Shown here: positions 1-36,216 of the stretch, one piece after another
Layout of the letters: every line of letters starts with the position of its first letter
How positions within the stretch are numbered: the stretch's first letter is position 1
From: Chlorobiaceae bacterium
GTDB lineage: Bacteria; Bacteroidota; Chlorobiia; Chlorobiales; Chlorobiaceae
Reading direction: 5' to 3'
Assembly (NCBI GenBank): GCA_013334335.1
Contig: JAAXXR010000011.1
Coordinates: 1-46,192, forward strand
DNA: 46,192 nt
Notes under the pieces: generated by a model
Databases searched by the model: none
What the model saw: the letters and a program-made list of their open reading frames with translations, nothing else
Told to the model about the DNA's origin: nothing
Translations under genes and position numbers: made by a program

Positions 1-480
1 GTCAGACGGGGCAAGAATAAGTTTGACGGTATGGGTGTTCTCGCTCACCCCGCCTCCTTCAGCGATAATCTGCACCTTTCCCTCCCGGCTGATCCCGATG
101 TTCAGTGCGATGCATGCCTCTTTCAGGGAAAACTCCGGTGGCGTTCCGGCAGCCTCCTCAACCCCTTTACGGACAGCGCTGACCGCTTCGCACAGTTCGT
201 CGGCAACGGATGCCATCAGTACCGGACCCTCCGCCGGCACAAGGGACAACGAGATCGTCTGGACCTCGCTCCTGGCATATTGGAGCGAGAGCTCGACCGG
301 CACCGGCACCCATGAGAACTTGCCATCCAGGCCTGCCGCCTTTTTGAAGGTCGTCCTGAGTTCGAGATCGACCCGCCTGACCGCAAGCAGCTTGTCAGGA
401 TCTCGATCCTCGGCGTTCCTGATCGCCATCTTTATCTGACGGACGAGGTCGACTATCGCCGTTCCCTGATCGCTGGACAT
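1..480 (-). CDS. Trypco2-like (trypsin-co-occurring domain 2) protein, partial
   Basis: The frame is open from the ATG at 480 to the window edge, so the 3' end is missing; 160 codons are visible. I translated it from the minus strand. It holds two similar units, each a short helix followed by a beta-rich stretch: residues 8-75 (RRVDLELR, then FSWVPVPVEL, then VQTISLSLVP) and about 85-160 (ACIALNIGIS, then ENTHTVKLILAP). The ending THTVKL-L-P and the -LEL- strand are what I know from the trypsin-co-occurring domain 2 family, small beta domains coded beside trypsin- or caspase-like proteases in predicted conflict systems. Three ATG codons lie in a row (486, 483, 480); GGAGG six bases upstream favours 480. 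The stop of the protease gene upstream is only 17 bases away, so the two are probably one operon. The family call is by eye; the biochemical role is unknown. Confidence 0.6.
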   Translation of the reverse strand, partial: MSSDQGTAIVDLVRQIKMAIRNAEDRDPDKLLAVRRVDLELRTTFKKAAGLDGKFSWVPVPVELSLQYARSEVQTISLSLVPAEGPVLMASVADELCEAVSAVRKGVEEAAGTPPEFSLKEACIALNIGISREGKVQIIAEGGGVSENTHTVKLILAPSD

Positions 481-497
481 CATCATCCTCCGGTTGA

Positions 498-1499
498 TTA
501 ACAGACCCTGACCGCCGCAATCCGGATGCCATCGTACAAATTCATCCGAAGGGCATCGACTTTGTTGGAACGCCACAACGGTCCCAGTTTGCGGTTCATT
601 TCATCCACCATGGCATCGCCCAACTTCCCGATGGCCTCTGGACAGAACATGGCCAAGAGCAGCCCCGGGGTCAATCGCGACATGAATGCCGATGTTTCCT
701 GCCATGAAACAAGCCCCGCGCCAACCTCGTTGGCGGCATTTCCCTCAAGCTTTCGGGCGATCAACTGCAACGCCCGCCTGACCGTCTCCGGCGAATCAGC
801 CATGGTGCAGGAGGCCCCGGCCCCGGTAAGCACATCGACCACGCTCTTGTACCACTGCTCCTCCTCCTTGCCACGAGCGAACTGGAACTGCGAGTGGCCC
901 CGCTGGTTATTCCATTCGGCGAGCTGAGGCAACGGCGGCAGGCGTGAAGCGTCGACCCCCGTATCAATGACCCCTACGACCGGCAACCGGATGAACTGAC
1001 TGAATACGCTCCATTGCCCGGACTGCTGTGCACCCAGATCGGAGATGATGAGACGGATGCACGCACGAATGAATGCGGCGATACCGGCAACCTTCGGCGC
1101 GGCGAAGCTGGTACCGGGCGAGAACGCAGGCCAGCGGGGATCAGGATTCGGCAGCTTTGCAGGCATGCCGTAGCTCACCACCGTCGGCCCAGGCTGGCCT
1201 TCGAGGCCGGTGCCTGAAATTGGAAGCAGCCTTTCGTCTGCGTCCACGGCCCCGACAGAGATCACCCAGGGGGCCTTCGCGAGCGATTGCATCTTGCCCG
1301 GGCCAAAATTCCCGGCGGCGACCACGACCGGGATATGGTGATCGTATGCAGATTTAGTGGCCTTCTGCAGTGGATGGTCGGGATTGAATTTCGTACTGTC
1401 AGGGCCAAGGGACAACACCATAACGTCAACGCCCTGTTCGATGCACGAATCGATACCCGAACAGATATGTTCGACCCAGTTCCCGTTGTCTGAACCCAT
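498..1499 (-). CDS. Subtilisin-like (S8) serine protease, N-terminally truncated
   Basis: This 333-residue protein matches the second half of a subtilase. It has the strand GVDVMVLSLG (about 24-33), the oxyanion-hole motif VVVAAGNFGPG (about 58-68) and the catalytic serine motif GTSFAAPKVAG (about 128-138). The normal N-terminal Asp (DTG) and His (HGT) motifs are absent before these. A DTG-like motif, VVGVIDTGVD, appears instead after the serine, near residue 173. The same frame continues upstream for 11 codons of plausible subtilase sequence (YVIAQEGV) before a TGA at 1533-1535, and beyond that stop reads ARHGLTGGS. The start at 1499 has a good GGAGG six bases before it. It is either a truncated, probably inactive gene, or an unusual family that works without the standard layout. 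It leads directly into the trypco2-like gene. Confidence 0.7.
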   Translation of the reverse strand: MGSDNGNWVEHICSGIDSCIEQGVDVMVLSLGPDSTKFNPDHPLQKATKSAYDHHIPVVVAAGNFGPGKMQSLAKAPWVISVGAVDADERLLPISGTGLEGQPGPTVVSYGMPAKLPNPDPRWPAFSPGTSFAAPKVAGIAAFIRACIRLIISDLGAQQSGQWSVFSQFIRLPVVGVIDTGVDASRLPPLPQLAEWNNQRGHSQFQFARGKEEEQWYKSVVDVLTGAGASCTMADSPETVRRALQLIARKLEGNAANEVGAGLVSWQETSAFMSRLTPGLLLAMFCPEAIGKLGDAMVDEMNRKLGPLWRSNKVDALRMNLYDGIRIAAVRVC

Positions 1500-22969: not shown

Positions 22970-23195
22970 AGAGACTGAACACTGATTCATGAACTGGAAA
23001 CGGCGCGGCGATGAAGCCCCGCAGTACTCCGCCGCGACAAGTTCGCGGGAGGCGCTTGATTTCCCTCAAACAACAACAGGATTTGCCGGATAGTTGCGAT
23101 CCCGCCCGGCTCCGCCTCTTCCGGGCCGGCAGTAAATATAAACAAAAGCGCTCTTTTCAAGGACGGTTTGCCGTATATACAAAATTTTACCTAAC

Positions 23196-23209
23196 TTCGG
23201 ATATCCGAA
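23196..23209. promoter_or_regulatory. Operator-like palindrome before the XRE/S24 regulator gene
   Basis: A perfect 14-bp palindrome, TTCGGATATCCGAA, 26 bases before the ATG at 23236 and next to a possible -10 (TAACTT at 23192-23197). Its place fits an autoregulatory operator of the repressor gene that follows. Confidence 0.5.
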
Positions 23210-23235
23210 ATATCTTAACCATAACCGAACCGACG

Positions 23236-23976
23236 ATGCCCGCACAACCACCACTCCCGATCGGAGCGCGGATCAGACAGGTCAGGCGCCACTTTTCGCT
23301 CAGACAGGACGAATTCGGACGGAAAATCGGCATCTCCGGGAGCCGGATATCTGAACTCGAGCACGACAAGGGCGGGGCTGGAGCCGGTGTGCTCGTGGCG
23401 ATCTGTCAGCAGTTTCCGGTCAGCCACAAGTGGATGCTTACCGGTGAAGGTCCCATGCTGAAAACCGAGCCGCCGGCAGCCCCCACCGAAACCGCTGCCG
23501 GCAACGTCGATCTTTCCCGTCGACTCGGCGATCTCGAGCGCCAAATCCGGCTGATCCTTCTCGATAAAGCGAGGGACGGCGATCGCCTCGTAGAGGTCCC
23601 GCTCTACTCATCGGCAGTTGCGGCCGGGCTTCCCGGACTGGCCTCCTCAGACGTGGAGGAGACCATCGAAATTCCTGCTGCCTGGTCTCATGGCAGGAAG
23701 AACCTGTTCGCCGTCAGGGTCCAGGGCGAAAGCATGCTGGACGCCGGCATCATGCCGGGCGACCGCCTTCTGGTAGAAACAACCCAAACCGCTCGTGACC
23801 TGCAGATCGTGATCGCCAGCATCGACGGCGAGATGACCGTCAAGAAGCTCAACATCGGAAAAGATGGCACGGTGAGGCTCGAACCGCAGAACAACGCCTA
23901 CGAGCCGATCACGATCACCCCCGAAATGGACTTCCGGATCCTCGGTGTCGTCCTCGCCGCCCTACGGACGTATTGA
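23236..23976 (+). CDS. XRE-S24 (LexA-like) repressor
   Basis: 246 residues. Residues about 8-65 form an XRE helix-turn-helix (IRQVRRHFSLRQDEFGRKIG, then ISGSRISELEHDKG). After a linker with a coiled coil (LSRRLGDLERQIRLILL) comes an S24 peptidase domain. It has a LexA-type Ala-Gly cleavage site (SSAVAAGLPG), the catalytic serine in VQGESMLDAGIMPGDRL and the catalytic lysine in GEMTVKKL. A protein like this represses its targets until self-cleavage, usually triggered by DNA damage and RecA. I chose the ATG at 23236 because the frame upstream to 23011 is not protein-like. A palindrome lies just before it. It is divergent from hrcA. Confidence 0.87.
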   Translation: MPAQPPLPIGARIRQVRRHFSLRQDEFGRKIGISGSRISELEHDKGGAGAGVLVAICQQFPVSHKWMLTGEGPMLKTEPPAAPTETAAGNVDLSRRLGDLERQIRLILLDKARDGDRLVEVPLYSSAVAAGLPGLASSDVEETIEIPAAWSHGRKNLFAVRVQGESMLDAGIMPGDRLLVETTQTARDLQIVIASIDGEMTVKKLNIGKDGTVRLEPQNNAYEPITITPEMDFRILGVVLAALRTY

Positions 23977-34356: not shown

Positions 34357-35985
34357 TCAGCTCCTTTTTTTCCCGGTAACACCCACCGTTCCGAGCCCCA
34401 TCAACACCGCAATCCCCAGGCAAGCCTTCGGGAACAGATCGGGGTGGGCGGTATAGAACGTCAGTCCTGATTCGAGCGGCACGTCGGCGACAAGCACCGC
34501 AGGTTGCCACCAGGGCGTCTCCGCTATGGTCCGGCCGAATCGGTCATAGAACAGGGTGACCCCGGTATTGGCGCAACGGGCCAGCGATCGCCGGTTTTCA
34601 ATGCAGCGGAACCTGCCGATGGCCGCATGCTGCCACGGTCCGTACGAGGTGCCATACCAGCCGTCGTTGGTTACCAGGGTGAGCAGTTGTGCCCCACCGG
34701 AGACGAACTCCGCGACCAGCCCGGGAAAAATGGACTCGTAACAGATGATGTTGGCTATCCTGAACGGCGCTCCGCGTGAGCCCCGAACCGTCATCACGGT
34801 GGCCTCGCGCCCCTGTTGCCAGCTGGTGATGCCGGAGAGCGAGAAACTGAGGTTTTCCAGCAAGGGGAGATATTCTGAATACGGAACCCGCTCTCCGAAA
34901 GGCACGAGCCGCATTTTCCGGTAGATCTGAATACCCGGGTCACCCGGTTGCAGCAGCATCGACGCGTTGTATGCCGCAAGCGGTCGATCATTGGCACCAG
35001 CTCCGTAAACGGTTCCGGCATCCCTTGACGCTACCGCCCGTGCTGGACGCTCGGCATCCGGGAATCCGGTCAACAGCGGCGTCTGCCAACGATCGACCGA
35101 ACTCATGACGGCGCTCATGAACAATTCGTTGCCGGGATCGCGGATATAGAAGGGTATGGCTGTTTCCGGCCACAGCACCAGATCCACCCGGCCGGTCACC
35201 AGGCTGCGTCCGGTGAGGCGGAAGAGGAGGTTCATCGTCTCTTCCGAACCGATTGCGCCCCACTTTTCATGTGGATCTATGTCGGGTTGCACGAGCGCAA
35301 CCCGGACCCTGCGCCCAGGATCCTGACGCTCCGCTCCGTCAAGCAAACGCCATGCGTACACCAGCGGTGCGGCGAACATGAGCCCCATGACGACAGCGAT
35401 CGCCCCGGCGGTGCGAATCTCCCCCCACGACCTGAGGAGCAGCAAGACGAGCACGTTGCAGGCGACCAGCCAGAAACTCACCCCCCATACCCCGGTGAGA
35501 TCGGCATACTGCACCATCCAGAGCAGGTTGGCCTGCGAGTTCCCCAGGGTGAGCCATCCGAGTGAGAAGTCCTGCTGCATGTAGGCCCACTCCCAGGCTG
35601 TCCAGAGAAACGGGAGCATGATGATCGCATACCGCTGCCCGGTACGTTGTCTGATCAGGAAATACAGGATGAAAGGCACGGTCGAAAAGAGGGACTGGAC
35701 GAAAATGGTCAGGATACCACCGGTGAGCGTGGCCAGACATACCCACCAGAGCGCAATCAGGCAGAAGAGCGAGGTGGCCGCCCATACCTTCCTGAAAAAG
35801 GGTACGAACCGAACGTCGCGTTCGACGGAAACAAGCAGCGGCACGAGCGCGACCCAGGCAAGGGGCTCCAGATGAACGGTCGGCCAGGTGGGAAACGAGA
35901 TACCGAGAAGCAGGCCGCTGAGCAGGGGTAAAACGACTCCGGAAAGAGTTGCCGGCGATGCGGGTGACAGGTTTTTCAGATTCAT
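34357..35985 (-). CDS. lnt: Apolipoprotein N-acyltransferase
   Basis: Adds the third acyl chain to the N-terminal cysteine of lipoproteins, in the inner membrane. About 542 residues from the ATG at 35985. An N-terminal part with six to seven hydrophobic segments (LSGLLLGISFPTW and onward) is followed by the nitrilase-like catalytic domain with the triad: Glu in LWPETAIPFYI, Lys in IYRKMRLVPFGERVPYSEYL and Cys in IANIICYESIFPGL. The final hydrophobic segment (CLGIAVLMGLGTVGVTG) closes the protein. It works with the lolD-like system coded at 12629. An upstream in-frame ATG at 36015 is less likely. Confidence 0.93.
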   Translation of the reverse strand: MNLKNLSPASPATLSGVVLPLLSGLLLGISFPTWPTVHLEPLAWVALVPLLVSVERDVRFVPFFRKVWAATSLFCLIALWWVCLATLTGGILTIFVQSLFSTVPFILYFLIRQRTGQRYAIIMLPFLWTAWEWAYMQQDFSLGWLTLGNSQANLLWMVQYADLTGVWGVSFWLVACNVLVLLLLRSWGEIRTAGAIAVVMGLMFAAPLVYAWRLLDGAERQDPGRRVRVALVQPDIDPHEKWGAIGSEETMNLLFRLTGRSLVTGRVDLVLWPETAIPFYIRDPGNELFMSAVMSSVDRWQTPLLTGFPDAERPARAVASRDAGTVYGAGANDRPLAAYNASMLLQPGDPGIQIYRKMRLVPFGERVPYSEYLPLLENLSFSLSGITSWQQGREATVMTVRGSRGAPFRIANIICYESIFPGLVAEFVSGGAQLLTLVTNDGWYGTSYGPWQHAAIGRFRCIENRRSLARCANTGVTLFYDRFGRTIAETPWWQPAVLVADVPLESGLTFYTAHPDLFPKACLGIAVLMGLGTVGVTGKKRS

Positions 35986-36104
35986 GATTCGGCAGGATTC
36001 CGGCCGGTAATGCACCGGCCTGCACTACCACCTTCCGAAACCCTTCAACCCTTGTCGGCAAAGCCGTACGGAAGAGGATCAGAGTACCGGAAAGAGGCAA
36101 ATTT

Positions 36105-36216
36105 TCTTTATTTATTAATATTTATTCTTTAAATTTGTTACAAGCTGTTATTTAACAGGAAGCAACCCAGTGTTTTTCCTGATAATACCATTTTAAACGC
36201 CACTCAGAAAAAGGAG
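36105..36216 (+). promoter_or_regulatory. AT-rich leader and ribosome site of fmoA
   Basis: The 36105-36145 stretch is strikingly AT-rich (runs such as TTTATTAATATTTATTC) in a GC-rich neighbourhood, and is the likely promoter region. A palindrome CTGTTA-TT-TAACAG lies at 36145-36158. A strong ribosome site AAGGAG (36211-36216) stands seven bases before the ATG. Confidence 0.5.

Follow-up and report, generated by a model that had tools for sequence, protein, structure and literature searches.

The window analysed here, 46,192 bases that make up one whole contig of a 2.18-Mb, 130-contig genome, carries at its left end a minus-strand gene pair in which a 333-residue protein with a partial, re-ordered subtilisin (S8) domain (gene A) is followed by a small adaptor-like protein of two units (gene B). 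The pair is real, and its first adaptor unit was correctly named as a trypsin-co-occurring domain 2 (Trypco2) by the original prediction. Nothing about the pair is more interesting, or more doubtful, than the re-ordering of the S8 domain, which that prediction missed. With moderate confidence, we propose that these genes form a variant co-transcribed peptidase-adaptor pair, part of a predicted NTP-dependent conflict system, in which the subtilase domain is rearranged and its activity putative. Either the pair is an unusual new form of a predicted defence module, or it is what remains of a broken one.

Gene layout and neighbourhood

The two minus-strand open reading frames lie 17 bases apart, as originally described, with a GGAGG 6 bases before the gene B ATG at position 480; gene A has an AGGAGG 6 bases before its own ATG. 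Position 1 is the contig end, so the sequence to the left of gene B cannot be read. The features of the pair are as follows.

1..219, minus strand: gene B unit 2, Trypco2/Pepco-like and truncated at the contig end (PF19631, 22.6 bits; PF24393, 21.7 bits)
220..480, minus strand: gene B unit 1, Trypco2 domain (PF19631, 43.9 bits, profile positions 3-78 of 78)
481..497, minus strand: 17-base spacer with the GGAGG ribosome site (direct reading)
498..1499, minus strand: gene A, 333-residue protein with a partial, re-ordered subtilisin (S8) domain
699..806, minus strand: gene A residues 232-267, putative C-terminal subtilase helix and GAGLV-like segment (MAFFT alignment with five ordinary S8 domains)
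888..902, minus strand: gene A residues 200-204, RGHSQ with candidate His202 (sequence only)
951..980, minus strand: gene A residues 174-183, Asp motif VVGVIDTGVD, after Ser (PDB subtilases, IetS models, local S8 profile)
1062..1496, minus strand: gene A residues 2-146, S8 core, starting beyond the missing third strand and reaching the Ser helix (Pfam and phmmer)

To the right of gene A and on the same strand, an acid phosphatase gene only 129 bases away and an adenosine deaminase gene are followed by DUF2238, bestrophin-like and housekeeping genes. The original prediction placed possible further genes of the system to the left, which lies beyond the contig end; the known genes on the right side are ordinary. 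No NTPase, STAND, vWA or TIR gene occurs among the visible genes, all on the right side, nor is a MoxR AAA ATPase, a vWA protein, a VMAP or a sulfatase-modifying factor seen on that side. Of the 21 genomes of the genus, 11 have the acid phosphatase, counting that of the window itself. Its surroundings are not conserved, and neither gene A nor gene B is found at any of the ten other loci examined. In three host relatives (L071, L072 and L075), small toxin-antitoxin-like genes, RelE/HigA-like and ParD-like by eye, occupy the site of genes A and B downstream of the acid phosphatase.

Elsewhere in the window, a plus-strand gene at 23011-23976 encodes a 321-residue protein in which a LexA/UmuD-type autoprotease domain comes after a HipB/DicA-like helix-turn-helix, reminiscent of a phage repressor or an SOS-type regulator. 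An Lnt RNA motif (36122-36181, minus strand, 74.6 bits) lies just upstream of the lnt gene (34357-36015) and suggests that the host is a green sulfur bacterium.

Gene B encodes a probable two-unit adaptor

Gene B had been read as two tandem Trypco2 units. Profile comparison upholds this for unit 1, which scores 43.9 bits against the Trypco2 family PF19631 (cut-off 24.2), but only in part for unit 2, which spans the whole profile (positions 2-78 of 78) and on its own stays below the cut-off at 22.6 bits. Unit 2 also scores 21.7 bits against Pepco (PF24393), below the cut-off of 27. Compared with each other by BLAST, the units show weak similarity (E 0.01, 29% over 38 residues). When gene B was compared by tblastn with 72,556 plasmids, a single record matched, a Deinococcus plasmid in which both units align at 31% identity. 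Because this alignment extends over both units, their pairing in gene B is, judged from sequence, not a product of chance. A duplicated or paired adaptor architecture is thus supported, albeit more weakly than the Trypco2 membership of unit 1. At the contig end gene B reads LAPSD, and the second Deinococcus unit ends in LAPLP followed by a stop. Since the counterpart ends at the same place, two residues past LAP, gene B is probably nearly complete, short of its stop codon or a few residues only.

Gene A carries an S8 core with the Asp motif after the Ser motif

In an ordinary subtilase, the catalytic Asp, His and Ser follow one another in that order within one domain, the His lying in an HGTxVAG motif or a variant of it. 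Gene A, originally called a subtilisin-like protease, matches the Pfam Peptidase_S8 family well above the cut-off (69.8 against 21.8 bits over residues 2-145), and its S8 core finds solved subtilisins by phmmer at E 1e-10. The oxyanion Asn64 stands in AAGN (61-64) and the catalytic Ser131 in GTSFAAP (129-135). The domain is nonetheless partial, since the match is limited to profile positions ~88-254 of 288, and it is re-ordered, with the Asp motif placed after Ser131.

This Asp motif, VVGVIDTGVD, is aligned by phmmer to that of solved subtilases. Among 200,000 shuffles of the C-terminal half of gene A, a strict form of the motif never arose and a looser form arose 183 times. The only His candidate after Asp179 is His202, in GHSQF (201-205), 23 residues on and without profile support; Asp-His spacing in the sampled compact S8 proteins is ~26-28. 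In a MAFFT alignment with five ordinary S8 domains, gene A residues from ~236 onward fall on the C-terminal subtilase helix, so that the Asp segment looks like an insertion, with the Ser helix on one side and this C-terminal helix on the other. Residues 232-267 alone have no Pfam match, and no Pfam family matched the C-terminal 187 residues as a whole. By profile comparison, an ordinary S8 domain does not begin in the part that follows the Asp motif. The two AlphaFold models, computed from single sequences, reached pLDDT values of 37 and 43.

A hidden upstream Asp/His part or a frameshift was considered and rejected, as no Asp strand or His motif precedes residue 2 in any of the three minus frames. 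Extending the gene A frame by 11 codons to the upstream stop raised the S8 score from 69.8 to 70.9 bits, and this gain of ~1 bit leaves no clear S8 remnant upstream. All three segments of gene A, the Asp segment included, have a coding-like composition by codon position, and both genes resemble host genes in this respect over their whole length.

Relatives of gene A and of the pair

No sampled genome of the family or the phylum yielded a close copy of gene A, and matches to it among 394 genomes of the phylum never extended beyond residue 159. Its C-terminal half has no match in plasmids, and no second subtilase piece resembling gene A was found in the same genome. Phage matches to gene A proved to be ordinary S8 cores only. 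Peptide patterns, which needed near-identical octamers, found neither a close relative of gene A nor a protein with the Ser-then-Asp order in genome and viral contigs. A DNA pattern with the Ser motif followed by the Asp motif matched eight times across 84,980 species, always out of frame or outside any subtilase, and its Met version had no match in viral contigs, the only set scanned with it. The DNA pattern covers only the TTC-GC start (fixed Phe-Ala codons) and a limited gap, so that scan leaves room for relatives of gene A. Given these limits of the octamer and DNA-pattern searches, the absence of Ser-then-Asp relatives is suggestive, short of proof.

Trypco2 and Pepco loci in other genomes

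According to published work (Kaur et al. 2020, PMC7159879), Trypco2 genes occur together with those for trypsin-like peptidases in predicted NTP-dependent conflict systems; the same work also names a subtilisin domain, as part of another system that includes a NucA endonuclease and a trypsin. We found no literature joining Trypco2 to S8. In a comparison sample of twelve Trypco2 loci from other genomes of other phyla, four have a Trypsin_2 neighbour, above the cut-off in L091 and below it in L089, L090 and L095, and five (L088, L089, L092, L093 and L094) have a gene with an AAA domain close by. Large FGE-sulfatase proteins are encoded at two of the twelve. Among the open reading frames of 90 residues or more that lie up to 4.5 kb from these Trypco2 genes, none contains an S8 Ser motif. 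The neighbours in this sample are thus trypsin-like or AAA proteins, or none recognised, and never a subtilase, in agreement with the ternary systems described in PMC7159879. The association of Trypco2 with trypsin-like proteases on which the original prediction drew is borne out by that work and by the sampled loci with AAA ATPases.

In Streptomyces, a Pepco gene directly precedes a caspase-iHD-CE protein (L051:6856-9716), and a weak Pepco gene at another locus (L102) lies beside a protein with a stretch that appears trypsin-like by eye. Other weak Pepco matches (L050, L054 and L100) were judged to be due to chance. A single Trypco2 gene of the Bacteroidota (L013:9720-10088) resides in a prophage-like region, with tail, holin- and lysozyme-like frames by eye and no adjacent peptidase.

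Discussion

In the peptidase-adaptor pair that we propose, gene B would act as a two-unit adaptor of Trypco2/Pepco type, and the subtilisin-derived domain of gene A would replace the usual trypsin or caspase. The adaptor may keep its protease-like partner inactive or dock it on an NTPase sensor, whose gene would lie leftward of position 1; sensing of an invader would then release proteolysis that harms the infected cell. Control of gene A by the adaptor is inferred from adjacency, following the published prediction (PMC7159879). The Trypco2 domain of gene B, the 17-base spacing with its ribosome site and the host-like codon-position composition of both genes argue for such a pair, as do the trypsin-like and AAA neighbours of the sampled Trypco2 loci and the Pepco gene beside a caspase-iHD-CE protein. 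The lack of a close copy of gene A in the family and phylum sample fits a mobile accessory module. Weighing against the pair are the abnormal S8 order with its unproven His, the low pLDDT values, and the ordinary right-hand neighbours with no visible sensor gene among them. The searches returned no relative of the pair, and hence no sign that it is kept by selection. The stronger claim that gene A is a working, naturally permuted subtilase, with its Asp strand C-terminal of Ser, and is controlled within a conflict system by a two-unit Trypco2/Pepco adaptor is unlikely in our judgement.

The greatest uncertainty concerns the state of the active site in gene A, which would fit a re-assembled triad, a dead scaffold or a gene in decay. 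Decay is a serious rival to the peptidase-adaptor pair, and we consider it possible, if somewhat improbable, that gene A is an inactive remnant of a subtilase that lost its 5' part with the Asp and His strands and was rearranged internally, leaving the adaptor behind. The missing Asp/His part before Ser, with the acid phosphatase so close, would be accounted for in this way, and the failure to find a relative with the Ser-then-Asp order, the stop between the units of the Deinococcus gene and the variability among congeners of the site downstream of the acid phosphatase all point in the same direction. However, a 333-codon frame with a strong ribosome site and coding-like composition in all its segments, followed by an adaptor gene open to the contig end, is not what decay would readily leave. 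Nor is an Asp motif after Ser expected from simple truncation, and extension past the ATG recovers no clear remnant.

We see little likelihood in a catalytically dead, subtilase-derived scaffold or pseudoenzyme that the adaptor would use for binding rather than cutting. The want of a proven His motif and of a Pfam match in the C-terminal 187 residues would suit such a protein, yet gene A retains an Asp motif of textbook form as well as the GTSFAAP Ser motif and the oxyanion Asn, none of which a pseudoenzyme need keep. Similarly improbable is an assembly artefact that joined two subtilase pieces at the contig end. The feature does lie less than 1.5 kb from that end in a 130-contig assembly, and no relative confirms the join, but frame and codon pattern run continuously through it, no similar second subtilase piece was found in the genome, and the part after the Asp motif does not begin like an ordinary S8 domain.

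If the peptidase-adaptor pair is true, an S8-derived partner and a doubled adaptor would widen the effector set under Trypco2 adaptors, and an Asp strand placed after Ser would mean that nature has re-ordered a very well-studied fold in an unusual way. If the pair has decayed, it would be an ordinary matter.

Comparison with known systems

The locus resembles the MoxR-vWA/VMAP ternary systems (Kaur et al. 2020, PMC7159879) in the Trypco2 domain of gene B unit 1 and in the small adaptor gene adjoining a peptidase-like gene on the same strand. It differs in that the partner, trypsin-like in those systems, is S8-like on the visible side here, and in that gene B has two units and comes after rather than before the peptidase. 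The Pepco family (PF24393) is similar to unit 2 in its C-terminal half (positions 54-108 of 112), at a score below the curated threshold and with Trypco2 equally similar. Models of IetS, the S8 peptidase of the IetAS anti-phage system, give weak matches to the Asp and Ser motifs of gene A, but at 10.7 bits against a cut-off of 900, and gene A is half as long with the motifs in the opposite order. The nearest counterpart of gene B is the plasmid gene of Deinococcus sp. NW-56 (NZ_CP026517.1, 338417-338890), 31% identical over 94% of gene B, which has both units in the same order and the same C-terminal end, its first unit being annotated as trypco2 family and its second as hypothetical. Unlike gene B, the Deinococcus gene (L012:10001-10474) has an in-frame stop between the units and no adjacent subtilase or other peptidase, its neighbours being the plasmid partition genes ParA/ParB and a replication initiator.
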